NCBI GenBank assembly: GCA_902787375.1 | Contig: CADAGD010000011.1 | Coordinates: 1-38,448, forward strand | Length of the DNA: 38,448 bases | Direction of reading: 5' to 3' | Source of the DNA: an uncultured Eubacteriales bacterium | GTDB lineage: Bacteria > Bacillota > Clostridia > Christensenellales > CAG-138 | In this document: piece after piece, positions 3,119-19,794 of the stretch | Numbering within the stretch: position 1 is the first letter of the stretch | Layout of the letters: each line of letters begins with the position of its first letter | Translations under genes and position numbers: made by a program | The notes under the pieces: generated by a model | Told to the model about the DNA's origin: nothing | Databases searched by the model: none | The model's input: the letters and a program-made list of their open reading frames with translations, nothing else

Positions 3119-3122
3119 ACAA

Positions 3123-4175: not shown

Positions 4176-4177
4176 AA

Positions 4178-5158: not shown

Positions 5159-7128
5159 GCCTCCTGCATGGTAAATATGTAGATTGGGTTCTGAGCTGTC
5201 ATAAGCGTATACGCTCCGACACCGCGCCCTCTTGCGACGCTGAGCTGGACGACCTCTTTATCATTGAATCCGAACTCCTTTAAACACCTTGACAATTCAG
5301 CGACCGTTTCGACGGCTATGGCTGTCGCCGTAATTCTCACAGAGTTGTTCTTTGCTTTGAGCAGCTCTATTATGTCCCTCATTCCGCCGGATGTTCCTCC
5401 TATGAATGCGTGCGTCGGCGCGGGAAGCTCCGCCAAAGCCTCCGGAGCGTTCCCATGCACTACCGAGATATTGGTAATGCCGAACCTCCTTATATTCTCC
5501 CTTATAAGCTCAACCGCTTCCTCGTTTTTTTCTATGGCATACACATGCCCGCAGCTTGCGGCAAGAGCCATCTCTATGGCTACGGAGCCGGTACCCGCGC
5601 CAATATCCCAGCATACGGAGTCAGGCATAAGGCGGAGCTTTGACAGACATACCGCGCGTACCTCGCTCTTGGTCATGGGAACTGCTCCCTTCTCGGAGCT
5701 GCCGCGCTGAAAGGCGGTATCGGGAAGCCCCTGCGTCACGGGAGTTTTCTGCGTTTCATGCTCTATAAGCGCCGCGCTTAACGGCTTAAAATCAATATCG
5801 GAAAGCTCGGCTGCCGTGCCTGAAATTATCCTTTCATCGGGATAACTCATGCGTTCGCCCACGGTCAACCAGGCGTCTTCAAGTCCGCTTTCGCAAAGCA
5901 TTCGGCAGAGCTTTTTGATGCCGTCATCCCCTCCGACAAGCGTAAAGACCCTTCCGTGTTTCCTCACCTTTGCCGCTATATCCGTTTCTCTTCCATGCAG
6001 ACTCGTTAAATGCACATTCTCATACGAAGTCCCCGCTTTGGCGCAAAGATATGAAAGGGAGCTTATTCCTGGAATAACATTTACATTGCATTTATCAAGC
6101 AGGGGAAGAAGCTTCTTTGTTCCGCTGTAGAATCCCGTATCGCCCGACATTACCACGGCAAATCTCCTGAAATTCCCGTGGGAAGCAATAAAATCTGCAA
6201 TATCACCGGGCAGTATTGCGTCATATTGCACCTGTCCCTGCGTCGCTACTGCCTCCAGCATACGCTTCGCTCCTATCAGGCACTCCGCATTTCTTATGCA
6301 GTCAAGTGCCTCTCCCGTCATGCACGAGCGGCTTCCGGGCCCTATGCCCACTATGGCAACATCCCTTCGTATGCTTATGTCAAATCTGCTTTCCAAAAGC
6401 TTAATAATATCCGGGAATGAAAGCCCTTCGTTATCTTTCGGACGTCCTATGACAATCAGCTTTGCGCCTGCTTCTTCAGCCGCCTGTGCCTTCTCATAAA
6501 AGCCGCCGCTCGCTCCCGATTCCTTAGTCACCATTACGGACGCCCCTATACTTTTCATTGTGGCGACATTCATCTGTTTTGTAAACGGGCCCTGCATGGC
6601 TATTATATGGGAGGGCTTTAATCCCGCCTTTTCGCACATACCGACGGACTCAACCATGGGAAGCACTCTTGCGTAAACCCTGTCAGTAAAGCCTTCAATA
6701 TCCGTAAACTTCTCAAGCTCCTTGCTGCCCGTAGTCAGAAGAACATTTCCCTGAATGGAATTGATACAGGAAACCGCTTCCGCTATGTCCCGAACAAGCA
6801 TGGCTCCGTCAATGGACTCGGAATCCCTTATAAGCCTTCTATACTCTGTTCCCGTTCGGGTACAGCTCTCCTTAATATTCTGTGTTACTATCTCGGCGTA
6901 CGGATGAGTAGCGTCAATTACCATATCAAACCGCTTTGATTCAAACAGCTCTGTCATCTCATCAGAGGTCAGCCGCTTTGCGGATATTTCAAGCCCTTCG
7001 ACATTTGGTAGCAGGCTTTCGCCATATTCCGTGGCAACACAGACCATAATGCTTATTTTATCATTCGGAAGCATCTCAACAAGCTCTCTGCCCTCGGTCG
7101 TGCCGGCAAAAATACAGAGCTTATACAT
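5155..7128 (-). CDS. Three-domain fusion: cobalt-precorrin-6A reductase + cobalt-precorrin-7 C5- and C15-methyltransferases (CbiJ-CbiE-CbiT)
   Basis: One 657-residue chain carries three cobalamin enzymes. About residues 1-250 are a CbiJ/CobK precorrin-6A reductase (FAGTTEGRE at the N-terminus, DATHPYAE near residue 72). About residues 255-465 are a CbiE tetrapyrrole methylase (VAIVGIGPGSRS, then VMSGDTGFYSG). About residues 478-657 are a CbiT SAM-dependent methyltransferase (VCWDIGAGTGSVAIEM, then FIGGTSGGMRDI). CbiE-CbiT fusions, as in CobL, are well known; addition of the reductase in front is less usual. The frame is open throughout and all three motif sets look intact, so this is not a sequencing frameshift. 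The start overlaps the end of cbiH by 8 bases and the stop overlaps cbiB as ATGA. Confidence 0.93.
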   Translation of the reverse strand: MYKLCIFAGTTEGRELVEMLPNDKISIMVCVATEYGESLLPNVEGLEISAKRLTSDEMTELFESKRFDMVIDATHPYAEIVTQNIKESCTRTGTEYRRLIRDSESIDGAMLVRDIAEAVSCINSIQGNVLLTTGSKELEKFTDIEGFTDRVYARVLPMVESVGMCEKAGLKPSHIIAMQGPFTKQMNVATMKSIGASVMVTKESGASGGFYEKAQAAEEAGAKLIVIGRPKDNEGLSFPDIIKLLESRFDISIRRDVAIVGIGPGSRSCMTGEALDCIRNAECLIGAKRMLEAVATQGQVQYDAILPGDIADFIASHGNFRRFAVVMSGDTGFYSGTKKLLPLLDKCNVNVIPGISSLSYLCAKAGTSYENVHLTSLHGRETDIAAKVRKHGRVFTLVGGDDGIKKLCRMLCESGLEDAWLTVGERMSYPDERIISGTAAELSDIDFKPLSAALIEHETQKTPVTQGLPDTAFQRGSSEKGAVPMTKSEVRAVCLSKLRLMPDSVCWDIGAGTGSVAIEMALAASCGHVYAIEKNEEAVELIRENIRRFGITNISVVHGNAPEALAELPAPTHAFIGGTSGGMRDIIELLKAKNNSVRITATAIAVETVAELSRCLKEFGFNDKEVVQLSVARGRGVGAYTLMTAQNPIYIFTMQEA

Positions 7129-7852
7129 TCCTGTACCCCCTCGGAGTTACCATATTTCCGCCTATCATCACAGTCATGCTGTTGCCTATGAAAACGGTGC
7201 AGAACATATCGGCGTCAACATCCCTCAGTTCCGAAAGCGTCATATAGCTTCGGCTCTCTCCCTGTCTTCCTATATTGCGTGCTATGGCGCATGGGCGCGT
7301 GCCGGGCAGTGTCTCAAGGAGAATATCACATGCTCGTTTTAGATGCTCCGGCCTTCCCTTGCTTGCGGGATTGTAAAGCACTATGGACATATCCGCCTCC
7401 GCAGCACATCTGAGCCTTTTCTCAATGGTCTCCCATGCAGTCAGCCTGTCCGAAAGGCTTATGACCGAGAAATCATGCGTGAGCGGTGCGCCTATCAATG
7501 CTCCTCCGCTGCATGCCGCTGTAAGACCGGGTATGACATCTATCTCAGGCTCCACGGATGAGCCTCTTATTTCATACACAAGCGCAGCCATACCGTATAT
7601 CCCGCTGTCGCCGGAGCATATCAGGGCAACGCTCGCGCCTTCTTTTGCCTTCTCGATTGCAATTGAGCATCTTTCGGCTTCCCTCGTCATCGGCGTCGTT
7701 ATGAATTCTTTTTCGGGATACCTCTTCTTTACAAGCTCAACATACACATTATAGCCTATTATTATATCGCAGTTTTTCAGAGCGTTATCCGCCCTTATGG
7801 TCATGTTGTCAATATCTCCGGGGCCTATTCCCACAATCGAAAGCTTACTCAA
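7121..7852 (-). CDS. cbiH: Cobalt-precorrin-3 C17-methyltransferase
   Basis: A 243-residue tetrapyrrole methylase that methylates C17 and drives ring contraction in the anaerobic pathway (CbiH; CobJ in the aerobic pathway). Visible family motifs are VGIGPGDIDNMT at the N-terminus, CSGDSGIYGMAA near residue 80, the VIPGLTAACSGGALIGAPL region, and LYNPASKGRPEHL. The start is TTG at 7852, preceded by AGGTGA at good spacing inside the end of cbiG; the two genes overlap by 8 bases. The next gene overlaps this one by 8 bases too. The motif set is of the C17 enzyme rather than of CbiL (C20), which is not found in the window. Confidence 0.94.
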   Translation of the reverse strand: MSKLSIVGIGPGDIDNMTIRADNALKNCDIIIGYNVYVELVKKRYPEKEFITTPMTREAERCSIAIEKAKEGASVALICSGDSGIYGMAALVYEIRGSSVEPEIDVIPGLTAACSGGALIGAPLTHDFSVISLSDRLTAWETIEKRLRCAAEADMSIVLYNPASKGRPEHLKRACDILLETLPGTRPCAIARNIGRQGESRSYMTLSELRDVDADMFCTVFIGNSMTVMIGGNMVTPRGYRNV

Positions 7853-8861
7853 AATTCACCTCATATTTCTCCGCCGCCACAGCTACGGTTACTCCGTTTA
7901 CGGCGGTTTTCCTGACAATAAGTCTTTCGGCATCCATAATCGCCGCACGTTCGCATACATTATCGACGCCTGTTATTCCGGCTACAAACTCCGAGGACGT
8001 AAAATCGCCCTCTGCCCTTCTCAACTCCTCCGCTGAATGAAAATCAATACCGATACCTTTTTCACGGCAAAACTCAAGAAGCCCTGCCTCGTTTGCCTTG
8101 AGGTCGATTGATGCCGCCTTTCCAACAGCGTTGAAATCCAACTTATTCTGCTCAAATACCTGTTCCACGGCATTTTTGACAGCTTCCGCGCTTATTCCTC
8201 GTCTGCACCCTAACCCCAAGTGCAATACCCTCGGTATCAGTCTGAGCGTTATATCAAAGGGCTTTTCGTTTTTGAATGTAACATAGATGCCTGTTTCGCC
8301 GGAGCTGCCCTCAAACAACCCCTGCGGCAGACTGCCAAGCATAGGAAAATCGCTTTTAACAGGTATATCCCTTTCAAGTATGGCGGCTGACACATGCTTT
8401 GCCGCAATCATACTGTCTATCAAAAGCCCTTTTCCTGCCGCCCACGAATCGACTGAAAAGCGTCCGTTAATGTCGGTCGCGGTGGTAATCACGGGCAGTG
8501 CGCCTGTTTTGCTCGCTATAAGGCTCGCAAGCGCGTTCGCGCCGCCTATATGTCCCGACAGAATGGGTATAATGAATTTTCCAAGCTCGTCCACCACTAT
8601 GACGGCGGGATCATGCGTCTTGGAACGCACATGCGGAGCTATCGTCCGCACGGCTATGCCGCAGGCTCCGACGAATACGATGGCATCCGCCCACGAAAAG
8701 CATTCCGCAAACAGCGGTGCGAACGGCTTGGGTATGGGTGAAAAAACGCCGCCCGATAGTCTTTCGACCGTATAAGCGCGCCATTCGCCGTCCGCCGCGC
8801 TCATAATGCTCTTGGCGGTATTCAAGCCTCTTTTGCTGTACGCAAATATAGCATATCTCAT
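7845..8861 (-). CDS. cbiG: Cobalt-precorrin-5A hydrolase
   Basis: Opens the delta-lactone of cobalt-precorrin-5A and releases the C2 unit as acetaldehyde, a step specific to the anaerobic pathway. The 338 residues hold the CbiG N-terminal and central domains (FVGACGIAVRTIAP and ILSGHIGGANALA near residues 62-110) and a C-terminal domain beginning LHLGLGCRRGISAEAV that corresponds to CobE. Length is normal. The gene lies between cbiF and cbiH with a 22-base gap upstream and an 8-base overlap downstream. An AAAGGA lies about ten bases before the ATG. Together with CbiD it shows that the organism uses cobalt-containing intermediates. Confidence 0.95.
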   Translation of the reverse strand: MRYAIFAYSKRGLNTAKSIMSAADGEWRAYTVERLSGGVFSPIPKPFAPLFAECFSWADAIVFVGACGIAVRTIAPHVRSKTHDPAVIVVDELGKFIIPILSGHIGGANALASLIASKTGALPVITTATDINGRFSVDSWAAGKGLLIDSMIAAKHVSAAILERDIPVKSDFPMLGSLPQGLFEGSSGETGIYVTFKNEKPFDITLRLIPRVLHLGLGCRRGISAEAVKNAVEQVFEQNKLDFNAVGKAASIDLKANEAGLLEFCREKGIGIDFHSAEELRRAEGDFTSSEFVAGITGVDNVCERAAIMDAERLIVRKTAVNGVTVAVAAEKYEVNFE

Positions 8862-8883
8862 TCCATGCTTTTCCTTTAAATAA

Positions 8884-9651
8884 TCATTTTTGCTTATCGG
8901 ACTCCGCTTTTCTGAATTCGGTGCTGAATCCCGGATGATAGAGCATCGAACGCAGATACTCTTCGCCCATGCAGCCGCCGACTATTATCAGGCTGGTCTT
9001 GGTCAATCCGTTATCAACGACCGTGCTGTGAAGCTCGCCAAGCTTGCATTTTATTATCCTCTCGTCCGGCCATGTGGCTTTGTATACAACGGCGACCGGC
9101 GTATCCTCGGAGTAGCCGCCTTCAAGAAGCTCCCTTTGAAGCTTCTCGGTAAGCGACGTGCTTAAAAACATTATCATGGTAGCACCATGCGCGGCAAGCG
9201 AGCTGATGCTCTCCCTTTCCGGAACCGGCGTTCTTCCCGCCGCTCTTGTGATTATGACCGTTTGGCTGACGTTTGGCAGCGTGTATTCCGCCTTGAGCGC
9301 GGCTGCCGCTCCGCAGAAGGAGCTTACGCCGGGGCATACGTCATAATCTATTCCAAGCTTAATCAGCTCATCAAACTGCTCACGCACAGCACCGTAAATG
9401 GACGGATCGCCCGTATGCAGTCTGACGGTAGTCAAGCCCCGCTCCTCCGATTCCTTTATGACGTCAATCACCTGCTCAAGCGTCATGGTCGCGCTGTTAT
9501 GTATCATGCAGCCGTCTTTGCAATATGACAGCAGCTCCGGGTTGACAAGTGAGCCGGCGTATATGACGACGTCCGCCTCCGAAAGCAGCTTTGCTCCCCT
9601 GACGGTTATCAAATCGGCAGCACCGCTTCCGGCTCCCACAAAATGTACCAT
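8884..9651 (-). CDS. cbiF: Cobalt-precorrin-4 C11-methyltransferase
   Basis: A 255-residue SAM-dependent tetrapyrrole methylase (CbiF/CobM). It begins MVHFVGAGSGAADLITVRG, shows YAGSLVNPELL near residue 31, LHTGDPSIYGAVREQ near residue 78 and PGVSSFCGAAAAL after that, all hallmarks of the C11 enzyme. Length is typical. The start ATG at 9651 follows AAGGAGG with a 7-base spacer and lies two bases beyond the cbiD stop, so coupling is likely. The C-terminus is slightly extended and charged (about 15 residues after the last conserved block). Confidence 0.95.
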   Translation of the reverse strand: MVHFVGAGSGAADLITVRGAKLLSEADVVIYAGSLVNPELLSYCKDGCMIHNSATMTLEQVIDVIKESEERGLTTVRLHTGDPSIYGAVREQFDELIKLGIDYDVCPGVSSFCGAAAALKAEYTLPNVSQTVIITRAAGRTPVPERESISSLAAHGATMIMFLSTSLTEKLQRELLEGGYSEDTPVAVVYKATWPDERIIKCKLGELHSTVVDNGLTKTSLIIVGGCMGEEYLRSMLYHPGFSTEFRKAESDKQK

Positions 9652-9653
9652 AT

Positions 9654-10799
9654 CTATACCTCCTTAAAATAACCGATATAATCGGCGGCATTCGGTGTTG
9701 CACAAAGCACACCGTATTCTTTGGAAAACACTATCGCCTCTATTTTCAGATCCTCCCCTGCGCGGTAGTTCAGATTGAAATGTATCCTGTCCGCGATGCT
9801 TTTAAGAGTTTTTCTCTCCGTTTCGCCATCAAACTCACGAAGTATCCTCACCGCGTCGTCACAGGCGGCACATTGGAGTATCTCCGAAATAACGGAAGCC
9901 GGTGCGCCCGAAGCTCCGGCGTGAGCGGCGATTATCTCCATACGGCAGTCGCCATACTTGGAGTGGGTATTCATCATGCCGCCCGCTATCTTTACAAGCT
10001 TGCCTATATGCCCAACCAAAAGGGCCCGTTTGAAGCCGAGCTTGCCGCATATATCTATCGAATCCCCTATGAAGTTAGAAGTCTGAACAGCCCTTTCGGG
10101 ATCTATTCCAAGCCCGTCCTTTATGAAATCCGAACCGTAATTGCCCGGAGTCAAAAGCACCTCATCAAAACCGGACGCCCTTCTCTGATTCAGCTCCACA
10201 TGTATCGTGTCCACAAGCGCTTTTTCGCTCATCGGCTCCACAATGCCCGTTGTGCCGAGTATTGATATGCCGCCTACAATACCAAGCCTGGGATTGAAAG
10301 TTTTCTTTGCTATCCTCTCCCCGTCCGGGCAGGATATTATTACTTTGAAGCCGCCCCTGTAATCAGCAAGCCGCATGACCTCCTCGATACCCTCATGTAT
10401 CATCTGCCGCGGCACGGAGTTTATAGCGGCGTTCCCGACCGGCTGATCGAGTCCGCGCTTCGTGACCCTGCCTATGCCCTGACCTCCGTCAATAATGATT
10501 CCGGCTTCATCTGTCAGGCAGACTTTCGCGTATATGAGTGTTTCGTTTGTAACGTCCGGATCGTCGCCGGAGTCCTTCTTAACGGCACAGCTTACCTCCC
10601 CGTTTCCAATGGAAATGTCAAGCACGTCAAGCTCAAGCGGTATTCCTTTTGCGGTTGTAATGCCAATGCTGTTCCTGCGCTTTCCAAACAGCAGCATCCA
10701 TGCCGCCGCCTTGGCGGCAGCCGCGGCGCACGAGCCGGTAGTGTAACCCAACCTCAGCCGCTTGCCGTCCTTCTCTATAAATTCGTTGAACTCGCTCAT
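9654..10799 (-). CDS. cbiD: Cobalt-precorrin-5B C1-methyltransferase
   Basis: A 381-residue CbiD, the C1-methyltransferase of the anaerobic pathway and a good marker for it. Family features are RLGYTTGSCAAAAAKAA near residue 17, KKDSGDDPDVTNETLIYA near residue 75, GGQGIGRVTKRGL and the LGTTGIVEPMSE segment near residue 180, with GHIGKLVKIAGGMMNTHS later. Length matches the family. The ATG at 10799 is one base after the cbiC stop. It sits in the middle of the operon and has no regulatory element of its own that I can see. Confidence 0.96.
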   Translation of the reverse strand: MSEFNEFIEKDGKRLRLGYTTGSCAAAAAKAAAWMLLFGKRRNSIGITTAKGIPLELDVLDISIGNGEVSCAVKKDSGDDPDVTNETLIYAKVCLTDEAGIIIDGGQGIGRVTKRGLDQPVGNAAINSVPRQMIHEGIEEVMRLADYRGGFKVIISCPDGERIAKKTFNPRLGIVGGISILGTTGIVEPMSEKALVDTIHVELNQRRASGFDEVLLTPGNYGSDFIKDGLGIDPERAVQTSNFIGDSIDICGKLGFKRALLVGHIGKLVKIAGGMMNTHSKYGDCRMEIIAAHAGASGAPASVISEILQCAACDDAVRILREFDGETERKTLKSIADRIHFNLNYRAGEDLKIEAIVFSKEYGVLCATPNAADYIGYFKEV

Positions 10800-10800
10800 A

Positions 10801-11430
10801 TCATCTGCTTATCCGATACAGCATAGCGTTGACTATTGCGGCGGCGACATTGCTCCCGCCCTTGCGTCCGCGCGCCACTATATGAGGAGCTTTCGATTCG
10901 ATTATAAGCTCCTTGCTCTCAACTACGTTTACAAAGCCGACGGGAACGCCTATTATAAGCGCGGGTTCAAGCTTTCCGGCTTTCATAAGCTCATTTATGG
11001 ATATGAGCGCGGTAGGAGCATTGCCTATGGCAAATATGCACGGCTTTGAAAGCATTGCCGCCCTTTCCATGGACACCATTGCCCGCGTGACGCCCCGCTC
11101 CTTTGCCTCGGCAGCCACGTCCTCATCGGACATAAAGCAATGCACCTGTCCTCCGAGTCTTGCCAGCACGGTCTTATTTATGCCCGACTTTGCCATCTGG
11201 GTATCCGTGACAATATCGCATCCGTTCTTTAAGGCTTCAATACCAATCTCTGCCGCATGTTCGGAAAATACAAGATTTTTTACATAATCAAAATCCGCGG
11301 TGGTATGTATCACCCGCTTTATTATCAGCTCGTTTTCGGGGTCAAGCTGAATGCCATCCCTCTCAAGCTGTTCCGATATTATCTCGAAGCTCCTTTTTTC
11401 TATGTCCATCGGTTTTATATTTTCAATCAT
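10801..11430 (-). CDS. cbiC: Cobalt-precorrin-8 methylmutase
   Basis: Moves the methyl group from C11 to C12 to give cobyrinic acid. The 209 residues match the CbiC/CobH family: IEKRSFEIISEQ at the N-terminus, the VIHTTADFDYVKNLVF segment containing the catalytic His, DTQMAKSGIN, and the C-terminal ARGRKGGSNVAAAIVNAM block. The open frame extends to 11451, but AAAGGAG lies 9 bases before the ATG at 11430 and that ATG overlaps the cbiA stop as ATGA, so the shorter start is chosen. Confidence 0.95.
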   Translation of the reverse strand: MIENIKPMDIEKRSFEIISEQLERDGIQLDPENELIIKRVIHTTADFDYVKNLVFSEHAAEIGIEALKNGCDIVTDTQMAKSGINKTVLARLGGQVHCFMSDEDVAAEAKERGVTRAMVSMERAAMLSKPCIFAIGNAPTALISINELMKAGKLEPALIIGVPVGFVNVVESKELIIESKAPHIVARGRKGGSNVAAAIVNAMLYRISR

Positions 11431-12773
11431 GGCTGTTTCTCCTTTAAACACGCTTTATAGAAATTGACGGCAAAGTCCGTATTGGCAAGGAAGTGGAAGT
11501 GCGGAAAACCCGCGTAAAGCGTTTCGTTTGCAAAAACACATTTCCATTCGCGCCCCGTTTTTTTCCTTGCGGTAAAGCAATCGCCCGTGTTATCGCAATC
11601 CCAATGATGGAACTCATGCGCGGGTATTCGGTCGCCTTTTTTGCAGAGCATATTATCCCTTTCGGCTGTCAAAGTCACATATCCGAACCTTGTGAGCTTT
11701 CCCATATCATGGCTTTCGCCATTTATAAAGCCGACCATCGGCTGACCCGCAATGGCTTGTGTGAGGTACATGAAGCCTCCGCATTCGGCTATGCAGGGTA
11801 ATCCCGCTTTTAAAGCCTCAGCTATTGAGCGGCGCATAGAGATGTTTTGGGACAGCTTTTCCGCGTACAACTCAGGATATCCGCCGCCGAGGTATATGCC
11901 GTCAACGCCTGCGGGTATTGCGCGGTCATATATCGGGCTGAATTCAACCAACTCCGCGCCCATGCTTTTTATAACATCCAAGCTGTCCTCATAGTAGAAG
12001 CAAAAGGCGTTATCCCTCGCAACTGCAACTCTTATGGGATCAAGCTTGGGAAGGGTTATATCCTCGTAATCAATATCCTGCGCGGTTCCTGCAATCTCCA
12101 GCAGTCCATCCAAGTCAACGCTCTTTTCCGCCTGTTCTGCAAGCCTTTGCATCTTCTGCTTCAGATCCTTCAACTCATCCGCCGTAACAAGCCCAAGGTG
12201 CCGGCTCTCAACAGCGCATTCCTTCAATCGCGGTAAAAAGCCAAGCGTTCTTATACCAAGTCTTTTTTCTATTTCCGGAGCAATCAGCTTGTAAGCGGAT
12301 TCCGTGCAATCATTGAGTATGACCGCTTTGATATTGTTATCGGCTTCAAACGCAAGAAAGCCCTGTATCTGCGCAATAACAGACAACGCGGCTCCTCTTG
12401 CGGATACCGTGAGGACGACCGGACTGTCGGTAAGCCTCGCAAGGTCATATGTGCTTGCCTGCGTGCTTGTCAAGCCAATGCCGTCATAATAGCCCATAAC
12501 GCCTTCTATAACGCATATATCGCGGCACGCGCAGTTCTTCGCAAGCAGATGTTTAAGCTTGCCCGCATCGAAAAAGAACGGGTCGAGATTGGAGCTTGGA
12601 GCCCCTATAACACGCCTATGAAACATCGGATCAATATAGTCGGGGCCGCATTTGGCACCGCCGACATCCAGCCCTCTGTTCTTCAATGCCTGCATAACGG
12701 CGCATGTGACGGTAGTTTTTCCGCAGCCGCTGTTAGTGCCTGCCATTATAACCCTTTTAACCACAAGCTTCAT
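11427..12773 (-). CDS. cbiA: Cobyrinic acid a,c-diamide synthase
   Basis: Amidates the a and c carboxylates of cobyrinic acid with glutamine and ATP. The 448 residues have a P-loop-type N-terminal domain (IMAGTNSGCGKTT, then CGPDYIDPMFH) and a C-terminal glutamine amidotransferase-like domain (YLGGGYPELYAE and nucleophile motif AECGGFMYL). The open frame begins at 12794 within the upstream ATPase gene, but GGAAGG lies 8 bases before the ATG at 12773, one base beyond the upstream stop, so that start is used. Cobyrinate rather than hydrogenobyrinate is the inferred substrate because the rest of the pathway is anaerobic. Confidence 0.95.
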   Translation of the reverse strand: MKLVVKRVIMAGTNSGCGKTTVTCAVMQALKNRGLDVGGAKCGPDYIDPMFHRRVIGAPSSNLDPFFFDAGKLKHLLAKNCACRDICVIEGVMGYYDGIGLTSTQASTYDLARLTDSPVVLTVSARGAALSVIAQIQGFLAFEADNNIKAVILNDCTESAYKLIAPEIEKRLGIRTLGFLPRLKECAVESRHLGLVTADELKDLKQKMQRLAEQAEKSVDLDGLLEIAGTAQDIDYEDITLPKLDPIRVAVARDNAFCFYYEDSLDVIKSMGAELVEFSPIYDRAIPAGVDGIYLGGGYPELYAEKLSQNISMRRSIAEALKAGLPCIAECGGFMYLTQAIAGQPMVGFINGESHDMGKLTRFGYVTLTAERDNMLCKKGDRIPAHEFHHWDCDNTGDCFTARKKTGREWKCVFANETLYAGFPHFHFLANTDFAVNFYKACLKEKQP

Positions 12774-12774
12774 A

Positions 12775-13914
12775 TCAAACGCCTTCCAATTCACAGATTT
12801 CGTTTAACACCCTCATCGCCCTGTCGCGCGCATGAGCGATAAGCCTTGAGTTCATCTCGTTCAGGCTTCCCTTCGGTGTTCCAGCGTCAACTACAACATC
12901 GCATTTTTCAAGTGCTTTTACGGCAGCCCTGTATATCTCATCCCCCGGCAATTCAAATGCCGGCGTTATAAAAGCTTCGACCGCGAGCTTTGTCGCTACC
13001 TGAGTGTCCGTATCGTTTTCAAAGAGTATCCCTGTGGAAAAGGGTATCTTTTTTCTCTGGAGCGCACGGTAAAACGGAATGCCGCAGCCGTTTCCCGCTA
13101 CCACGAATACTCTTGCCATGCCCTCTGTTTTTTTTAGCTCAACGCTTCCGAACAATACATTGTACGAGCCTGAGTCCATGCCGTAAAGCTCCTCTATGGG
13201 GAGCGTTTTCAGCACCTCCTCCGGTGAACCGAAGGCGGCTATTCTATCCCCCTTGACGCACATAAGATAATCCGAAACCTTCGCGGCAAGGTCGATCTCA
13301 TGCAGGCTCATTATGACGGTTATTTCCTGCTCATGCGCCATCTCTCGCAGTATATCAAGAAGCTCCGTCTTATGCCATATATCAAGGAACGCCGTCGGCT
13401 CATCCAGTATTATTATTTCGGGTCTTTGACATATTGCTCTTGCAAGAACGATTCTCTGCTTTTGTCCATCCGAAAGCGTCAGGAACTCCTGCGCGGCTAT
13501 GTCGAGTGCGTTGACCTTTTCAAGTGATTCGCGGACAATTTCCTTATCCTCCGGTGTCAGCATTCCGAGCATGTTGGTATACGGATACCTTCCCAATGCC
13601 ACAACATCCCATGCCGTCATGAGTTCGGGCTTTATGCGCTCGGTCAATACAACAGCCGCCTTTCTCGCCATCTGCTTGGGCTGCCAGTTCAATATCTCCT
13701 GGCCGTCTATAAGCACGCTGCCCTTTATCCTGTCAAGCTGCTTGGTAATAGTTTTCAGTATGGTTGATTTGCCGGAGCCGTTCGGCCCGATGAGGGTCAA
13801 TATGCTCCCTTTTTCAAGCGATATTTCAATATCGTGTATCAACGCGCTTCCATTATAGCCGACCGCAAGCTCATGTGCTTCAAAGTACAGCTTCTTACTT
13901 CTTTCAGCATTCAT
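12775..13914 (-). CDS. btuD: Cobalamin/corrinoid ABC importer ATPase with extra C-terminal domain (BtuD-like)
   Basis: The first ~260 residues are an ATPase of the FecE/BtuD type: Walker A GPNGSGKST, signature LSDGQKQR (Asp where LSGGQ has Gly), Walker B IIILDEPTAFLD and switch His in MSLHEID. Residues ~265-379 form an added domain beginning ARVFVVAGNGCGIPFYRAL and containing FENDTDTQVATKLA and CDVVVDAG. It looks like a small alpha/beta domain of unknown role. The gene lies directly after the BtuC-like permease and before cbiA, all under a cobalamin riboswitch, so corrinoid or cobalt-related uptake is the best guess; iron-siderophore transport is less likely. The binding protein is probably the one at 17698-18840. 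Confidence 0.88.
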   Translation of the reverse strand: MNAERSKKLYFEAHELAVGYNGSALIHDIEISLEKGSILTLIGPNGSGKSTILKTITKQLDRIKGSVLIDGQEILNWQPKQMARKAAVVLTERIKPELMTAWDVVALGRYPYTNMLGMLTPEDKEIVRESLEKVNALDIAAQEFLTLSDGQKQRIVLARAICQRPEIIILDEPTAFLDIWHKTELLDILREMAHEQEITVIMSLHEIDLAAKVSDYLMCVKGDRIAAFGSPEEVLKTLPIEELYGMDSGSYNVLFGSVELKKTEGMARVFVVAGNGCGIPFYRALQRKKIPFSTGILFENDTDTQVATKLAVEAFITPAFELPGDEIYRAAVKALEKCDVVVDAGTPKGSLNEMNSRLIAHARDRAMRVLNEICELEGV

Positions 13915-13916
13915 AA

Positions 13917-14978
13917 CTACACAGCCTCATTCTTTCTTCGATTTGCAATCATCCAGATAACCACCGGTGCGCCGAACACACTTGTCACCGTGCTTATATT
14001 GATGTCAGCAGGAGCAAGCGCGGTTCTTGCTATCAGGTCGCACATCACGCAGAACACCGCTCCGCAAAGGAACGAAGCCGGTATGACGAAAGCCGGCTTT
14101 GAGCTTTTAAGCAGGGTTCTTGTTATATGCGGAACAGCTATACCGACAAACGATATCGGGCCGACAAGCGCGGTAACACATGCCGACAGCATGGATGACA
14201 GCAGTATTAATGCCAGCCTGAACGGTTTTATCCTTATGCCCATGCTCTTTGCGTAGTTTTCGCCCAGCGCGTATGCGCCCATAGGCTTTGACATAAGCCA
14301 GACCGCTATTATTACCGGAATGCAAACTATTGCGGCAGTTCGGACGTTCTCCCAATCGGTACCGGAGAATGTCCCCATCGACCAATGCGTGAGATTTACT
14401 ATGTCCTGCTCGCTCGCAAAAGTAACACATAAATCGGTTACAGCACTGCATATATAGCCGACCATTATTCCGACAACAAGCAGCAGCGACATGTTTTTAA
14501 CCTTTTGAGAAAATATCATTACAACAGCAGTTATTATAAGCGAGCCCATAAATGCCGCCGCAATGAGGAGCCATGGGCCTGCCTTGGAAAGTATGTCCGA
14601 CAGAAATATCATCGTTATTCCCACAACCATCTTTGCTCCCGATGAAATACCAAGCACAAAGGGTCCCGCAATGGGATTCCTGAAAAAATTCTGGAGCAGG
14701 AATCCCGAAACGGCAAGCGCGCCTCCGAGTATCCCGGCAAGCAGCATACGCGGCAGTCTTATATTAAACAGTATTATGGACTCCGTAGGCAGATTGGCGG
14801 CGTCATTTCCGCTTGGGTTCATTATAAATTCAAGCAGGCTTGAAACGACCCTTTCCGCCGGAATATTCGCGGAGCCTATCGTGATATTCAGTATCAAGGC
14901 AACGAGGAGCAGCAGCAAAAGTATCACCATCACAAACGTAAAGCGCAAGCCCCTCGGCATCTCATTTCTTTTTTTCAC
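13917..14978 (-). CDS. btuC: Cobalamin/corrinoid ABC importer permease (BtuC/FecCD family)
   Basis: A 353-residue FecCD-family permease with about ten membrane segments. Conserved blocks are IRLPRMLLAGILGGALAVSG, NPIAGPFVLGISSGAK and the C-terminal GPISFVGIAVPHITRTL, which contributes to the contact with the ATPase. The start is GTG at 14978, preceded by AAAGGAGGGG about 7 bases upstream; an ATG at 14960 is possible but has a poorer site. It is the first gene of the operon and lies only a few bases beyond the terminator that follows the minus-strand cobalamin riboswitch. Family members also carry siderophores or heme; the riboswitch and neighbours argue for corrinoids. Confidence 0.9.
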   Translation of the reverse strand: MKKRNEMPRGLRFTFVMVILLLLLLVALILNITIGSANIPAERVVSSLLEFIMNPSGNDAANLPTESIILFNIRLPRMLLAGILGGALAVSGFLLQNFFRNPIAGPFVLGISSGAKMVVGITMIFLSDILSKAGPWLLIAAAFMGSLIITAVVMIFSQKVKNMSLLLVVGIMVGYICSAVTDLCVTFASEQDIVNLTHWSMGTFSGTDWENVRTAAIVCIPVIIAVWLMSKPMGAYALGENYAKSMGIRIKPFRLALILLSSMLSACVTALVGPISFVGIAVPHITRTLLKSSKPAFVIPASFLCGAVFCVMCDLIARTALAPADINISTVTSVFGAPVVIWMIANRRKNEAV

Positions 14979-15064: not shown

Positions 15065-15265
15065 GTTAGGGCAGATTAGACCTCAAGCAGGTCTTCCGAC
15101 TCGCGCATCAACGGCTTACGGCACGCCTTCTCAGGGATAAACCCCAATGGCTGACTTTCGTAATGTGCCGCGCCTATGCGTTCACGGCGGCGGTTCCGTT
15201 CGGGATTTGCACCCGATTGTCTATTCTTCCCACACGGCATTTGAGCTGAATGGGACACTTGAGGT
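15065..15265 (-). promoter_or_regulatory. Cobalamin riboswitch controlling the minus-strand cbi/btu operon
   Basis: The minus strand carries the adenosylcobalamin riboswitch core: GGGTGCAAATCCCGAACGG followed by an ACCGCCGCCGTGA-type segment (15185-15220 region), then the B12 box GCGAGTCGGAAGACCTGC at about 15087-15104. Between them lies a long peripheral arm. The element precedes a terminator and then the permease gene, so B12 most likely causes premature transcription termination of the whole uptake and synthesis operon. Outer boundaries are approximate; the core is clear. Confidence 0.92.
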
Positions 15266-15276
15266 ATTTTTATATA

Positions 15277-15305
15277 ATTTTAATATCTCTTGCTGTTTTT
15301 GTCAA
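15277..15305 (-). promoter_or_regulatory. Promoter for the minus-strand riboswitch transcript
   Basis: On the minus strand TTGACA (15305-15300) is followed after 17 bases by TAAAAT (15282-15277). The start of transcription would fall just before the riboswitch. It faces away from the plus-strand promoter whose -35 box is about 60 bases to the right. Confidence 0.75.
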
Positions 15306-15365: not shown

Positions 15366-15394
15366 TTGACAAAGCACGGAATATGCGTTATATT
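15366..15394 (+). promoter_or_regulatory. Promoter for the plus-strand riboswitch transcript
   Basis: TTGACA at 15366-15371 and TATATT at 15389-15394 with exactly 17 bases between. The predicted transcript begins near 15402, just before the plus-strand cobalamin riboswitch. Confidence 0.78.
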
Positions 15395-15612: not shown

Positions 15613-15652
15613 TGCCTGCGGTGTCGGGTGGTCTGGTATGTATGCTTTCAGC

Positions 15653-15690
15653 AGCCGAGGCGGTATTAAAACGTCTCGGCTTTTATTGTC
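15653..15690 (+). terminator. Riboswitch-linked intrinsic terminator before the exported cbiK
   Basis: AGCCGAGGCG pairs with CGTCTCGGCT (one G-U pair) around a nine-base loop at 15653-15681 and is followed by TTTTATTGT. It lies about 60 bases after the B12 box and 73 bases before the cbiK start, as expected for a transcriptional off-switch. Confidence 0.85.
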
Positions 15691-15762
15691 ATTCGGGCTG
15701 TTGTTTTCAATACCTGACAGCAGCTTGAAAAAATACAAAAATATAAACTGGAGGAAAAGAAC

Positions 15763-16680
15763 ATGAAAAAAACCGTAAAACTTTTGTCACTCATGCTTGC
15801 CGTGCTTTTTGTTTTCGCAATGGTCGGCTGCAACCCTGGACAGAACAACAATCAGGAAACAAAGAACACCGATAAGCCCGCCGAAGGCGATAACACCGTA
15901 AAGCCCGTTATTCTTGCCGTTTCATTCGGAACCAGCTATAACGATTCCCGCGAGAAGACCATCGGCGCCATTGAGGATGCTCTCAAGACCGCTTATCCCG
16001 ATTACGAAGTCCGTCGTGCTTTCACCAGCCAGATAATCATTGACAAGCTCAAGGAGCGTGACAACCTCACCATCGACAACGTAACCGAGGCTCTTGATCG
16101 CCTTGTTGCTGACGGCGTTAAGGAAGTTGTCATTCAGCCCACTCATGTTATGAGCGGCTATGAGTATGATGATGTTATCAAAGAGGTCAACAAGTATAAC
16201 GATAAGTTTGACAGCGTCAAGATCAGCAAGAACCTTCTTGCCGCCGACTCGGACTATGACGCACTCGTAGAGATACTTGTAAACACCACCGCTGATTACA
16301 ATGCCGAAGGTACTGCCATCGTTTACATGGGACATGGTACAGAGCATGAAGCCAACACCACCTATGCCAAGCTTCAGGAAAAGATGACCGCTGCCGGTCA
16401 TAACAATTATTTCATCGGCACCGTTGAAGCTACCCCCAGCGTTGAAGATGTTATCGCTCTCGTCAAGGAAGGCGGCTATAAGAAGGTAGTCCTGCTCCCC
16501 CTGATGATCGTTGCCGGCGACCATGCCAACAATGATATGGCAGGCGATGAGGAAGATTCCTGGAAGACCCTCTTCAAAAACGAAGGCTTTGAGGTCGAAT
16601 GCGTTATCCGCGGTCTCGGTGAGCTTGCCGATGTTCAGCAGCTTATCGTAAAGCATTGCGGCGAGGCAATGGGTAAATAA
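15763..16680 (+). CDS. cbiK: Exported CbiK-type sirohydrochlorin cobaltochelatase, predicted lipoprotein
   Basis: Residues 1-23 form a lipoprotein signal ending MVGC (Cys23), followed by an Asn/Lys-rich linker and then a full CbiK chelatase domain from about residue 50 (ILAVSFGTSYNDSREKT) to the C-terminus. The two metal-site histidines are in MGHGTEHEANTTY (His191) and VAGDHANNDMAGDE (His254), so the active site looks intact. CbiK normally inserts cobalt into sirohydrochlorin in the cytoplasm; exported forms are known from Desulfovibrio (CbiK-P) and related proteins occur near heme-uptake genes. Here the enzyme should sit outside the membrane, next to corrinoid-uptake lipoproteins. GGAGG lies 8 bases before the ATG. 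Its codons are more biased to AAG, AAC, GTC and GGC than its neighbours, which suggests strong expression. Substrate is uncertain. Confidence 0.9.
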   Translation: MKKTVKLLSLMLAVLFVFAMVGCNPGQNNNQETKNTDKPAEGDNTVKPVILAVSFGTSYNDSREKTIGAIEDALKTAYPDYEVRRAFTSQIIIDKLKERDNLTIDNVTEALDRLVADGVKEVVIQPTHVMSGYEYDDVIKEVNKYNDKFDSVKISKNLLAADSDYDALVEILVNTTADYNAEGTAIVYMGHGTEHEANTTYAKLQEKMTAAGHNNYFIGTVEATPSVEDVIALVKEGGYKKVVLLPLMIVAGDHANNDMAGDEEDSWKTLFKNEGFEVECVIRGLGELADVQQLIVKHCGEAMGK

Positions 16681-16702
16681 TCTCACTAACATTCTCCGTG
16701 TA

Positions 16703-16738
16703 GCTTCTGCGCGCATTAATCGGAATGCGCGTGGAAGC
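16703..16738 (+). terminator. Strong intercistronic hairpin (partial terminator or processing site)
   Basis: A 15-pair stem, GCTTCTGCGCGCATT with AATGCGCGTGGAAGC (two G-U pairs), around a six-base loop lies between cbiK and the next lipoprotein gene. It is followed by ATTTATTAATTA, not a pure T run. It may cut down readthrough or protect the cbiK message end. No second promoter is obvious after it. Confidence 0.6.
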
Positions 16739-16779
16739 ATTTATTAATTATACAAAACGGCATTAAAAGAGGTTTTATT

Positions 16780-17280
16780 ATGAAAAGGTTAATTGCTTTT
16801 TTTATTTGCGTTATAACAGTTTTAAGCCTTGCGGCTTGTTCAGACAATCAGGTCAGCGACAAAAAGGCTGCTGCCGACGGTACTGAAGCGTCAAGTGCTC
16901 TCCCCGTTATAAACGCCGAACAGATAAAGGACGGCGAGTATGAAATAGAGGTTGAGTCCAGCTCCTCCATGTTCAGAATCGTAAAATGCGTCCTTACAGT
17001 CGCTGAAGGCAAAATGACTGCCGCAATGACGATGAGCGGTCAGGGCTACGGTGCTTTATTCATGGGCAAAATGGGCGACGCTCCGGCATCCCCCGATGAC
17101 ACATGTATTCCATTCGAGAACGACGCCGACGGAGCCAAGGTATTTACAGTACCCGTTGAAGCTCTCAACAAGCCGATAGACTGCGCGGCATGGAGCATCC
17201 GCAAGGAAAGCTGGTATGACCGCGAGCTGATCTTTAAATCCGACATGATACCGTCTGAATGTATTTCCGCAAACAACTGA
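16780..17280 (+). CDS. Small lipoprotein with NEAT-like domain, B12-regulated
   Basis: A 166-residue protein with a lipoprotein signal ending SLAAC (Cys20) and one compact, mostly beta domain from about residue 50. The domain begins KDGEYEIEVESSSS, contains a GKMTAAMTMSGQGY strand pair and ends VFTVPVEALNKPIDCAAWS followed by WYDRELIF. This order of strands resembles NEAT and similar Ig-like heme-binding domains, but the match is by eye and the usual NEAT Tyr motif is not exact. It shares KDGxYxxEV, GKxTA, S-x-x-x-Y and F-x-x-PV with the next gene, so the two look like diverged tandem copies. AAGAGG precedes the ATG. A role in binding a corrinoid, tetrapyrrole or cobalt outside the cell is inferred from the riboswitch and neighbours. 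Confidence 0.7.
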   Translation: MKRLIAFFICVITVLSLAACSDNQVSDKKAAADGTEASSALPVINAEQIKDGEYEIEVESSSSMFRIVKCVLTVAEGKMTAAMTMSGQGYGALFMGKMGDAPASPDDTCIPFENDADGAKVFTVPVEALNKPIDCAAWSIRKESWYDRELIFKSDMIPSECISANN

Positions 17281-17299
17281 GATTGGAGGAAAAAACAAT

Positions 17300-17701
17300 A
17301 TGAAACGCATAATTTCCGTATTTTTAATCATTCTTGTTCTTTCATTGGCTGTTGTCGGATGTTCCTCGAACAAGAACACCGCTCCCAAGGACGGAACCTA
17401 TACCGTTGAAGTGACTCTCAAGGGCGGAAGCGGCAAGGCTTCCGTTACAAGTCCCGCCACGGTCGTCATAGCCGACGGAAAGGCTACCGCGACAATCGTG
17501 TGGAGCAGTTCCCATTACGAATATATGCAGATAGGCGAAACGCGCTATGATCCGATCAATACAGAGGGCAACTCGACATTTGAGATTCCCGTAACATTCG
17601 ATGAGGAAAATGCCGTCAGCGCGCTTACAACAGCCATGAGCGAGCCTCATCTTATTGATTATACCCTCTTCTTTGACAGCAGTACACTCAAAACAAAATG
17701 A
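17300..17701 (+). CDS. Second small lipoprotein with NEAT-like domain, B12-regulated
   Basis: A 133-residue lipoprotein with signal ending AVVGC (Cys21), then a single domain: KDGTYTVEVTLKGGSGKAS, the strand pair VVIADGKATATIVWSS, HYEYMQIGETRYDPIN and FEIPVTF near the end. The pattern of a beta hairpin after DGK, an aromatic-rich stretch and a final IPV strand resembles NEAT-like folds and parallels the preceding gene. GGAGG lies before the ATG, 19 bases after the previous stop. Its own stop overlaps the ATG of the binding-protein gene as ATGA, a sign that the two products are made together. Ligand unknown; several Tyr and His residues in the central stretch could contact a macrocycle or metal. 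Confidence 0.7.
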   Translation: MKRIISVFLIILVLSLAVVGCSSNKNTAPKDGTYTVEVTLKGGSGKASVTSPATVVIADGKATATIVWSSSHYEYMQIGETRYDPINTEGNSTFEIPVTFDEENAVSALTTAMSEPHLIDYTLFFDSSTLKTK

Positions 17702-18840
17702 GCGTCAAACGCATAACGGCTTTTATAATCTGCCTTTTAATAATCGGCTGTGTTTTCCCGTCATGTGAACCGACGTCGAAAGCCTCCGGCTTGGGAAACG
17801 GCACCGAGCCTGTTGGCAGTATGGAGCTTAAATTTGCCACAGGCTTCTCAGTCGATTATTATCAGGATGGATGCAGACTGATTACCATTCAGGATGAGGA
17901 ACGGTTCCTCATTGTTCCCGAAAATGTTCCTGTCCCATCCGGCATATCCAAGGACATCGTCGTTCTGAAGCAGCCGATAAAAAACGTCTACATAGCCGCT
18001 ACTGCGGTCATGTGTCTTATAGACGGACTCGATAGGCTGGATGCAATAAGGCTCTCAGGCACAAAAGCAGACGACTGGTACATAGAAAATGCCAAAAAAA
18101 GCATGGAGGAAGGAAAGATACTCTATGCGGGAAAATACTCCGAGCCCGACTATGAGCTTATTCTCTCCGAGGGCTGCACTCTCGCGTTGGAATCGGGTAT
18201 GATAGGTCATGCGTCAGAAGTCAAGGACAAACTTGAAAAGCTTGGCGTCAATGTGTTTATTGACCGTTCAAGCTATGAGGCACATCCCCTCGGACGAACT
18301 GAATGGGTAAAGGTCTACGGCGTTCTGTTTGACGCTGAGGAAAAGGCCGACGAGCTTTTCTCGGAACAAGTAAACCTCATGGACTCCGTATCCGGCGAGC
18401 AGAAGAACGGCAAAACCGTCGCTTTCTTCCGCATAAGCTCATCGGGATACGCCGTTGCGAGAAAATCAGGGGATTACGTCAGCAGGATGATAGAGCTTGC
18501 AGGAGGCAATTATGTTTTCTCAGACCTCGGTGACATCGGCAGTGCAATGGCGACAGTCAATGTCGAGATGGAAACATTCTTCAAGACCGCCCGTGACGCT
18601 GACATCATAATCTACAACAGCACAATAGGCGGCGGTGTTTCCTCTCTTGACGAGTTTCTGTCCCTCAGTCCTCTGATGAAGGATATGAAAGCCGTCAAGG
18701 ACGGAAATGTCTGGTGTACGGGCGAAAGCATGTATCAACAGACATTGAATACCGGACGAATAATAAGCGAGCTTAACAGCATATTTACCGCCGAGCCGGG
18801 CGATATGCTTGAGCTGAAGTATTTTTTCCGTCTTGATTAA
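17698..18840 (+). CDS. btuF: ABC importer substrate-binding lipoprotein (BtuF/FepB-like)
   Basis: A 380-residue periplasmic-binding-protein type 2 family member with a lipoprotein signal; the modified Cys is probably Cys18 (LIIGC) though Cys23 (FPSC) is possible. The two lobes are recognisable: LIVPE and KNVYIAATAVMCLIDGLDRL in the first, a central helix through the YGVLFDAEEKADELF segment, and VSRMIELAGGNYVFSDLGD with DADIIIYNSTIGG in the second. It is longer than E. coli BtuF. The gene is the last of the riboswitch-controlled surface operon. The only permease and ATPase nearby are those of the divergent operon, so it probably feeds them. Corrinoid or a precursor is the inferred cargo; heme and siderophores are alternatives. 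Confidence 0.85.
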   Translation: MSVKRITAFIICLLIIGCVFPSCEPTSKASGLGNGTEPVGSMELKFATGFSVDYYQDGCRLITIQDEERFLIVPENVPVPSGISKDIVVLKQPIKNVYIAATAVMCLIDGLDRLDAIRLSGTKADDWYIENAKKSMEEGKILYAGKYSEPDYELILSEGCTLALESGMIGHASEVKDKLEKLGVNVFIDRSSYEAHPLGRTEWVKVYGVLFDAEEKADELFSEQVNLMDSVSGEQKNGKTVAFFRISSSGYAVARKSGDYVSRMIELAGGNYVFSDLGDIGSAMATVNVEMETFFKTARDADIIIYNSTIGGGVSSLDEFLSLSPLMKDMKAVKDGNVWCTGESMYQQTLNTGRIISELNSIFTAEPGDMLELKYFFRLD

Positions 18841-18865
18841 GTGAAAACGACCAAAAAGCAAACCG

Positions 18866-18904
18866 GCAGGATTCAAACTCCTATGTTTGTCTCCTGCTTT
18901 TTGT
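18866..18904 (+). terminator. Intrinsic terminator after the surface-lipoprotein operon
   Basis: GCAGGA..CAAAC pairs with GTTTG..TCCTGC, with a small internal mismatch, followed by TTTTTG. It comes 26 bases after the binding-protein stop and separates the riboswitch-controlled unit from the cobT cluster. An A-rich stretch precedes it. Confidence 0.88.
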
Positions 18905-18975
18905 TTGCTGCAAATCCGATTCGCCGTCCCGATAAAAACCAATATCCGCGTTTTGGGAGTTTGGCGGTATCAGCC

Positions 18976-19004
18976 TTGATTTTAAAGCGGTTTCATGCTA
19001 ATAT
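18976..19004 (+). promoter_or_regulatory. Probable promoter of the cobT cluster
   Basis: TTGATT at 18976-18981 and TAATAT at 18999-19004 are 17 bases apart, and TGC directly before the -10 box makes it an extended type. No B12 box or other riboswitch element is seen between the terminator and the first gene. The leader would be only about 16 bases. Confidence 0.5.
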
Positions 19005-19026
19005 GTACAAAAACGGGAGGTTCACC

Positions 19027-19794
19027 ATGCCGAACATCCAGCAAAAACTGCACATATCATCAATAGATTACGACTGCCGCAGCTATGCCGTAAAGTACGG
19101 GCTTGGCTTGGAGATAGCCGAATTTTGTTGGGCGCAGCACATTGATAAAGAACGTGAGCGGCATATTAAGAATGCTGCTTGCCAGATAGAAGGAATAGAC
19201 AACCTATGGTTTCACGCTCCGTTTGCGGAGCTTGCTCCCTGCGCCATTGATCCAAGAGCGCGTGAGCTTGCCCGTCTAAGGTACAGGCAAGCCATTGAAA
19301 TCGCACAAAGGCTCGGCATCAACCGTATTGTCATCCATGGCGGATACATTCCCCTTGTCTATTTTCCCGAAACATATGTCGAAAAATCTATATGCTTCTG
19401 GAGAGAATTTCTCCAAATCGTCCCATATGATTGTACTATCGCGCTTGAAAATGTAATGGAGCCCGATCCTGCCATGCTTGTTGAAATCGTATCGGAAATC
19501 AATGACGAAAGGCTCGGACTTTGCCTTGATGTGGGGCATGCCAACTGTCCTACCTCAACGCTTCCTCCATTGGAGTGGATCTCCCCAATGGCTCCGTATT
19601 TAAAGCACATGCACATTCACAACAATTCAGGCCGGCACGACACCCATAACTGCCTCGACGACGGCACGATACCCATAAGAGAAATACTGGACAAAACCCT
19701 TGAGCTTTGTCCCGAAGCAACATTTACTATTGAAAACATGTACTGTGAAAGGTCGCTTGAATGGCTGCATTCACAGGGATTTCTGGAGTATTGA
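19027..19794 (+). CDS. TIM-barrel protein of the sugar isomerase/AP endonuclease 2 family
   Basis: A 255-residue xylose-isomerase-like TIM barrel. Metal-binding positions of the family appear kept: HGG near residue 105, LEN in the fifth strand region, LDVGHAN, HMHIHNNSGRHDTHN and TIEN near the C-terminus. Such proteins can be sugar-phosphate isomerases, epimerases or endonuclease IV-like nucleases; at this length and without the full endonuclease IV motif set an isomerase-type enzyme is likelier. The frame is open from 18841, but GGGAGG six bases before the ATG at 19027 fixes the start. cobT begins two bases after its stop, so it may have an unknown part in cobalamin nucleotide-loop assembly. 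Function not known. Confidence 0.75.
   Translation: MPNIQQKLHISSIDYDCRSYAVKYGLGLEIAEFCWAQHIDKERERHIKNAACQIEGIDNLWFHAPFAELAPCAIDPRARELARLRYRQAIEIAQRLGINRIVIHGGYIPLVYFPETYVEKSICFWREFLQIVPYDCTIALENVMEPDPAMLVEIVSEINDERLGLCLDVGHANCPTSTLPPLEWISPMAPYLKHMHIHNNSGRHDTHNCLDDGTIPIREILDKTLELCPEATFTIENMYCERSLEWLHSQGFLEY

Follow-up and report, generated by a model that had tools for sequence, protein, structure and literature searches.

A cobalamin riboswitch-controlled clostridial operon encoding an exported CbiK-type chelatase and two NEAT-like lipoproteins: a candidate route for capturing cobalt-bearing tetrapyrroles

Background

What might be carried by a pair of small lipoproteins encoded in tandem within a cobalamin-controlled locus, alongside the components of a B12-type importer? 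The capture of corrinoids and cobalt at the surface of Gram-positive gut bacteria is poorly described, and one survey of genomes from the human gut treats how B12 and its precursors are transported as an open problem (PMC6593275).

The locus considered here lies on a stretch of DNA of 38,448 nt, referred to throughout as the window, from an uncultured Eubacteriales bacterium (contig CADAGD010000011.1 of assembly GCA_902787375.1; GTDB lineage Clostridia, Christensenellales, CAG-138). An earlier note on this sequence drew attention to two adjacent open reading frames (ORFs), here termed A and B, and proposed that they encode NEAT-like lipoproteins relaying corrinoids or cobalt tetrapyrroles. NEAT domains are tetrapyrrole binders that act as heme carriers; those that bind heme possess a YxxxY motif, the first tyrosine of which is the iron ligand, and a lip comprising an SxxxxY/3-10 helix region.

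Results and discussion

Organisation of the locus

The genes for a CbiK-family protein, A, B and a BtuF-like protein follow one another on the plus strand, CbiK first, behind a cobalamin riboswitch aptamer (RF00174; 15401-15612, plus strand; 87.8 bits against a gathering score of 31.5), which bears out the B12 control originally proposed. Upstream of the aptamer is a promoter-like site (15366-15394, plus strand; TTGACA-17-TATATT, 11/12, a match to the consensus only), while downstream of it is a terminator-like hairpin followed by a U-rich tract (15653-15681, plus strand), a possible expression platform that is absent from the output of a hairpin pattern scan and was seen by folding of positions 15640-15695 (-19.4 kcal/mol, z -4.3). 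The CbiK-family exported lipoprotein (15763-16680, plus strand; PF06180, 298 bits) is separated from A by a gap containing a 15-pair hairpin with a T-rich tail (16703-16738, plus strand), detected both by the pattern scan and by folding (-25.4 kcal/mol, z -5.5 for 16700-16750), which may partially uncouple A and B from CbiK. Proteins A (16780-17280) and B (17300-17701) are then succeeded by a BtuF-like substrate-binding lipoprotein of the Peripla_BP_2 family (17698-18840, plus strand; PF01497, 105 bits), the start of which overlaps the stop of B, so the suggested linkage to a BtuF-like protein also stands. The BtuF-like protein had no PDB match at E ≤ 0.001. Between btuF and cobT lies a gene for a xylose-isomerase-like TIM-barrel protein (18841-19794; PF01261).

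A second, divergent cobalamin riboswitch (15069-15277, minus strand; 92.4 bits) is positioned 5' of btuC, btuD and the cbi genes. These encode a BtuC-like permease (FecCD; 13917-14978, minus strand; PF01032, 264 bits) and a BtuD-like ATPase with a C-terminal extension (12775-13914, minus strand; PF00005, 107 bits); the Peripla_BP_2, FecCD and ABC ATPase components of a BtuCDF-type importer are all present in the locus. Residues 13-357 of the ATPase align with the corrinoid ABC ATPase model NF007082, with a score under the model's cut-off. Its extension of about 100 aa has no Pfam match and is spanned, among the 25 NCBIfam matches listed of 195, solely by the corrinoid ABC ATPase model. In three related loci (L100, L137 and L141), BtuD and CbiD are combined in a single ORF.

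The remainder of this strand is occupied by corrin synthesis genes (1658-12794, minus strand), named largely from family profile matches. They comprise CbiP-type, CobD-type aminotransferase, CbiB, CbiJ-methylase-methyltransferase, CbiG, CbiH, CbiF and CbiD genes, the last identified by PF01888, as well as putative CbiC and CbiA genes, named from the sequence itself. A stand-alone CbiL was not recognised among the cbi genes of the window, the two single-domain methylases scanned being CbiH and CbiF.

A and B are related lipoproteins with affinity to NEAT domains

ORFs A (166 aa) and B (133 aa) have the positions assigned to them by the earlier note. Each has a lipobox, read from the sequence, after an N-terminal hydrophobic stretch (LAAC with Cys20 in A, VVGC with Cys21 in B), in keeping with their description as tandem small lipoproteins. 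The motifs initially noticed, KDGxYxxEV (KDGEYEIEV in A, KDGTYTVEV in B), GKxTA (GKMTA, GKATA), SxxxY (SGQGY, SSSHY) and a FxxPV strand (FTVPV, F122-V126 of A; FEIPV, F94-V98 of B), are indeed found in both proteins, and the resemblance is beyond chance: with the signal peptides removed, local alignment scored 61, compared with 27.4 ± 5.1 over 1000 shuffles, one of which reached 61, and the global alignment had a z of 5.3, with 0 of 1000 shuffles as high. Profile-profile comparison scored 78.9 at a probability of 98.0; reversing the alignment brought this down to 14.5. Judged by these alignments, A and B are homologous to each other.

Both window proteins fall below the cut-off of the Pfam NEAT model (PF05031; 32.8 bits), with scores of 20.1 bits for B and 14.4 bits for A. 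Among their relatives, however, NEAT is the commonest Pfam family matched at E ≤ 0.1: 54 of the 80 B sequences match it (best 2.2e-7), as do 35 of the 73 A sequences (best 3.2e-5). The A-B proteins of three relatives were scanned with the NEAT model: the B half of that from L077 exceeds the cut-off (34.7 bits, covering positions 2-118 of 119), L117 reaches 32.3 bits and L086 has no match.

A clearer signal came from HHalign comparisons with a reference set of 12 clostridial domains over Pfam's NEAT cut-off, in which B scored 73.7 (97.8%, 109 columns) and A 51.1 (95.0%, 87 columns); the corresponding controls for B and A were maxima of 17.5 and 16.7 over 40 column shuffles, 14.3 and 13.3 for reversed alignments and 12.2 and 22.2 against CbiK. 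In a whole-genome search, the B profile matched G295:C55:10400 (E 2.5e-8), a domain scoring 49.6 bits for NEAT; it is one of the 12 references, and hence that reference is near B. In the PDB, 4h8p and 4h8q were the top matches of the A profile (E ~9e-4, profile positions 2-108 of 120), both named as Iron Transport-associated domain proteins, while the best match of the B profile, 3sz6, which we take to be a NEAT domain, was weak and confined to the N-terminal half (E 0.025). Profiles were needed for this: PDB searches with the single sequences of window B and the L077 B domain returned no NEAT match. The comparisons support the view that A and B constitute a divergent branch of NEAT-type domains, homologous to NEAT. 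The original suggestion of NEAT likeness accordingly survives as profile homology of both proteins, but the window sequences themselves are below the Pfam cut-off and have no canonical YxxxY.

Candidate ligand residues

When A is aligned with 4h8p, K142 (present in 70 of 73 sequences) takes the position of the first tyrosine of the NEAT motif and Y146 (72 of 73) that of the second, with W145 a further residue of note. In B the pattern is HxxxY or YxxxY, consisting of H117 in 73 of 80 sequences (tyrosine in four) and Y121 in 78 of 80; the H117 tally counts as non-histidine two weak ORFs included in the alignment, L119:2927-3250 and L123:3253-3591. These are B-like ORFs of 22-24% identity located upstream of the main operon.

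It would be tempting to regard the HxxxY of B as an exact tyrosine-to-histidine swap of the NEAT motif, but this reading was set aside: under three settings, HHalign pairs Y146 of A with I119 of B, two residues off Y121. The 12 clostridial references, moreover, have no YxxxY, and their MG/MN motif aligns with AMS of B (M113, 78 of 80). Owing to this offset and to the MG/MN motif, the register of B relative to NEAT is unsettled, and M113, H117 and Y121 are all candidates. We treat K142 of A and M113, H117 and Y121 of B as putative ligands of the cargo. The lip region reads SSSSMF in A, with M64 in 72 of 73 sequences and F65 in 73 of 73, and GGSGKA in B, where there is a 6-residue gap with respect to NEAT.

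An exported CbiK-type chelatase

Among solved structures, those closest to the window CbiK are P. gingivalis FetB (9b86), which ranks first, a cobalt chelatase of S. Typhimurium (1qgo) and a putative chelatase of D. vulgaris (2xvx). Against the NCBIfam equivalog it scores 259.7 bits, the cut-off being 400. H191, E222 and H254, which we take to be the His/Glu/His active site of CbiK, are invariant in all 78 aligned CbiK sequences, that of the window included. By a simple hydrophobic-stretch rule, rather than a trained predictor, an export-like N-terminus is recognisable in 77 of 79 ORFs for CbiK, and the remaining two are cut at contig ends; the lipobox rule alone identifies 60 of 78, and several others resemble non-lipoprotein signal peptides. 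On account of its export-like N-terminus, we reject the reading of the window CbiK as an ordinary cytoplasmic biosynthetic enzyme. A further CbiK, which has no export-like N-terminus, is encoded elsewhere in the genome from which the window derives, on another contig.

Some variants of the chelatase are larger. Tandem CbiK pairs occur in one export-signal ORF of 780-942 aa at loci L204, L205, L207, L212 and L213 (genomes G039, G040, G046, G077 and G078), and in G039, G040 and G046 A lies inside an ORF of equal size to the tandem-CbiK ORF. In L094, L204 and others, the CbiK signal peptide and the chelatase core are separated by a conserved stretch of some 70 residues (ALIDAIYVQ ... DALTDAQKELVEGE).

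Conservation of the operon in relatives

Across species genomes, a relative of B was confirmed in 591 stretches or more, and the best 80 were analysed, such that the gene context described here reflects the nearest relatives. These loci are nearly all from metagenome assemblies, titled Clostridia, Lachnospiraceae, Oscillospiraceae and similar, with seven NZ_ records (Blautia, Butyrivibrio, Eubacterium, Gemmiger and Lachnoclostridium). Genes were located by six-frame search, with A and B told apart by best score. Within 3.5 kb of B on the same strand, these best 80 of at least 591 loci include CbiK in 78 (it was not found at L116 and L126), A in 79, BtuF in 77, BtuC in 71 and BtuD in 67. Exported CbiK, A, B, BtuF-like, BtuC and BtuD proteins are thus encoded together as a clostridial operon module.

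Neighbouring genes of this module are frequently fused. A and B are present in one ORF at 59 of the 80 loci (54 as A-B, three as A-B-BtuF and two as CbiK-A-B), CbiK is fused with A at 15 and B with BtuF at 14. Fusions joining CbiK to A, A to B and B to BtuF suggest that the four parts cooperate on one side of the membrane; together with CbiK itself, the fusions are the strongest evidence, and the earlier note mentions neither. Co-occurrence with cobalamin riboswitches extends across these relatives: a plus-strand riboswitch lies 5' of CbiK at 60 of the 71 loci whose upstream sequence exceeds 500 bp, the other 11 having none over the gathering score, and at 64 of all 78 scanned, these being the loci with CbiK (L116 and L126 were left out).

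Two loci have additional features. At L107, group II intron domain matches (5010-5313) fall between the CbiK-A and B-BtuF ORFs, and L093 harbours a second A-B ORF (13455-14285), which follows the first at a distance of around 6.5 kb and next to which no CbiK was found in the locus.

A proposed relay

We consider it somewhat probable that A and B are the middle links of a B12-repressed extracytoplasmic relay, through which a cobalt tetrapyrrole or corrinoid would pass to a B12-type importer and on to cobamide synthesis. The exported CbiK-type chelatase would act at the cell surface, binding or remodelling a cobalt-bearing tetrapyrrole or corrinoid, and this cargo would be handed from CbiK to A, from A to B and from B to the BtuF-like binding protein. 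BtuCD would then move it into the cell, where it would feed cobamide synthesis, with B12 repressing the operon for the relay. The riboswitch, the operon and the fusions all fit the B12-controlled relay of corrinoids or cobalt tetrapyrroles initially put forward; we infer the cargo, the direction and order of its transfer, an activity of CbiK outside the cell and the binding residues. Our confidence in the relay is slightly lowered by the fact that the HxxxY of B cannot be counted as an exact replacement of tyrosine by histidine.

Distribution and the possibility of metallation outside the cell

In a class-wide sample of 243 genomes, B (E ≤ 1e-5) was found in 15 and CbiK in 66, with 14 of the 15 B genomes having CbiK. 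The two were within 5 kb of one another in nine of these 15; some of the other B matches were weak. Among 103 genomes of the window's own family, B is present in 46, in seven of 26 genera; CbiK is present in 45, 44 of them in common with B, and CbiD in 45, 42 of them in common. B tracks CbiD across the family (Fisher p 1e-20, a value that ignores kinship). The cobalt importer CbiM occurs in four of the 103 genomes, none of which has B or CbiD (0 of 45 genomes with CbiD), and every match to the CbiX model listed at E ≤ 0.001 is within a CbiK locus. G022 has a second, more distant B match (C8:1656-2078, 42% identity) on another contig, where no CbiK is listed.

Nineteen genomes with both B and CbiD are at least 90% complete, two of them at 5-6% contamination. 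Sixteen have no CbiK or CbiX outside the A/B operon, and in 15 of these 16 the CbiK has an export-like N-terminus, the sixteenth being cut by a contig end; most such producers therefore seem to export their sole CbiK/CbiX-type chelatase. The other three (the window's own genome, G045 and G080) have a CbiK beyond the operon copy, which in every case lacks an export-like N-terminus. G018 (91% complete), which is outside the 19-genome set, has a weak partial B and neither CbiD nor CbiK.

These data might be explained by extracytoplasmic metallation, with the exported CbiK acting as the biosynthetic cobaltochelatase and placing Co2+ into a sirohydrochlorin-like tetrapyrrole, itself exported or scavenged, outside the membrane. 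A, B and BtuF would then import the cobalt complex, and no CbiM-type importer would be needed. The confinement of CbiK to the A/B operon in 16 of 19 genomes, the CbiX matches being restricted to CbiK loci, the lack of CbiM from all 45 genomes with CbiD and the invariance of H191, E222 and H254 are each consistent with this. Against it, three of the 19, the window's genome among them, retain a CbiK that lacks an export-like N-terminus, a sirohydrochlorin exporter would be required, and the genomes are drafts, mostly incomplete and related by descent. We judge this explanation unlikely. Equally doubtful is its general form, in which cobalt insertion is extracytoplasmic in many B12 producers of the Clostridia, with an exported CbiK of intact active site as their only early-insertion chelatase; entry of the cobalt tetrapyrrole through the A/B relay and BtuF-BtuCD would then account for the missing CbiM cobalt importer.

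Comparison with known systems and other possible cargoes

The relay proposed here resembles the Isd/Shp-type Gram-positive heme relays built from NEAT domains in that its domains are homologous to NEAT at the profile level, secreted, and arranged in tandem or fused, then followed by a binding protein and a FecCD-type importer. The window proteins differ in scoring under the Pfam cut-off, in the lysine of A at the first tyrosine of YxxxY, in the HxxxY of B with its unsettled register, in the shorter lip of B, in the B12 riboswitch and in the linkage or fusion to an exported CbiK.

Such parallels raise the question of whether the locus could instead serve heme or porphyrin acquisition, as a Gram-positive counterpart to Iht/FetB of P. 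gingivalis, with a surface CbiK homologue that strips or swaps the metal of heme and NEAT domains that carry it. Heme-binding FetB, which ranks first among PDB matches of the window CbiK, is linked to heme and Mn-porphyrin, and we take it to be one protein with IhtB; NEAT domains are known as carriers of heme. As the histidine of B is not countable as a proven swap of the iron-binding tyrosine, this alternative is slightly raised. In the accessible text on the Iht system, IhtB is a putative heme-binding lipoprotein and CbiK homologue associated with the ABC importer IhtC-E (PMC10913741), and part of a review states that FetB makes Mn-PPIX (PMC13402209). The two systems are alike in pairing a CbiK-homologous surface lipoprotein with an ABC importer, but the Iht system includes a TonB-dependent receptor and has been described in connection with heme, iron and Mn-PPIX, with no NEAT-like partner or B12 riboswitch mentioned in the same partial text. 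The cobalamin riboswitch at 60 of 71 loci, the linkage to cbi genes and the tracking of CbiD by B make heme a less likely cargo, and we regard this reading as improbable.

Closer in its regulation is Desulfovibrio, in which, according to the accessible portions of two reports, cbiK-cbiL and btuCDF are under one B12 element (PMC545781) and D. vulgaris has a periplasmic cobaltochelatase, CbiKP, that binds Co2+ (PMC4063343). The window resembles it in the B12 control of cbiK and btuCDF genes and in an exported CbiK, periplasmic in Desulfovibrio, with the chain 2xvx matching that of the window; Desulfovibrio differs in its Gram-negative periplasm, and no NEAT-like domains or fusions are named in these portions. 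Likewise, the accessible text on the BtuG and BtuH proteins of Bacteroides describes surface or B12-binding lipoproteins from corrinoid uptake loci (PMC6143338, PMC8941943), but these are of other protein families and have the outer-membrane BtuB as partner, with no link to CbiK mentioned there.

The periplasmic CbiK of D. vulgaris was co-crystallised with Co2+ held by a histidine ligand, as described in the accessible part of that report (PMC4063343), which, along with the absence of CbiM from genomes with CbiD, is compatible with scavenging of the cobalt ion, whereby CbiK and the NEAT-like domains would bind Co2+ and pass it to the ABC importer with no tetrapyrrole involved. The importer, however, is of the type used for B12, heme and siderophores (PF01497, PF01032), and it is established that NEAT domains bind tetrapyrroles, leaving this proposal very unlikely. 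Finally, it is hardly credible that the resemblance to NEAT is a generic similarity among beta-sandwiches: the window A and B are under the Pfam cut-off and B members have weak matches to Ig-like models (aBig_2 in 27 of 80, for example), yet column shuffles peaked at 17.5 and 16.7 where the profiles scored 73.7 and 51.1, L077 has a B half that spans nearly the full NEAT model above its cut-off, and the B profile retrieves a Pfam-level NEAT domain.

Conclusions

NEAT relays, exported CbiK and BtuCDF importers are each known; we found no report of their combination, of their fusion or of their joint control by B12, and a full-text literature search, mostly outside subscription journals, found no description of NEAT-like domains in B12-controlled loci. 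The operon described here suggests an unrecognised route for capturing cobalt-bearing ring molecules. As at least 591 genome stretches carry a relative of B, many organisms are available in which to test the parts of the operon.

If the relay exists as proposed, it would widen the range of NEAT relays from heme to cobalt tetrapyrroles, with lysine and histidine as candidate residues of the binding pocket, and it raises the question of why B12 producers should export what appears to be their sole CbiK/CbiX-type chelatase, and how cobalt then comes to be inserted.
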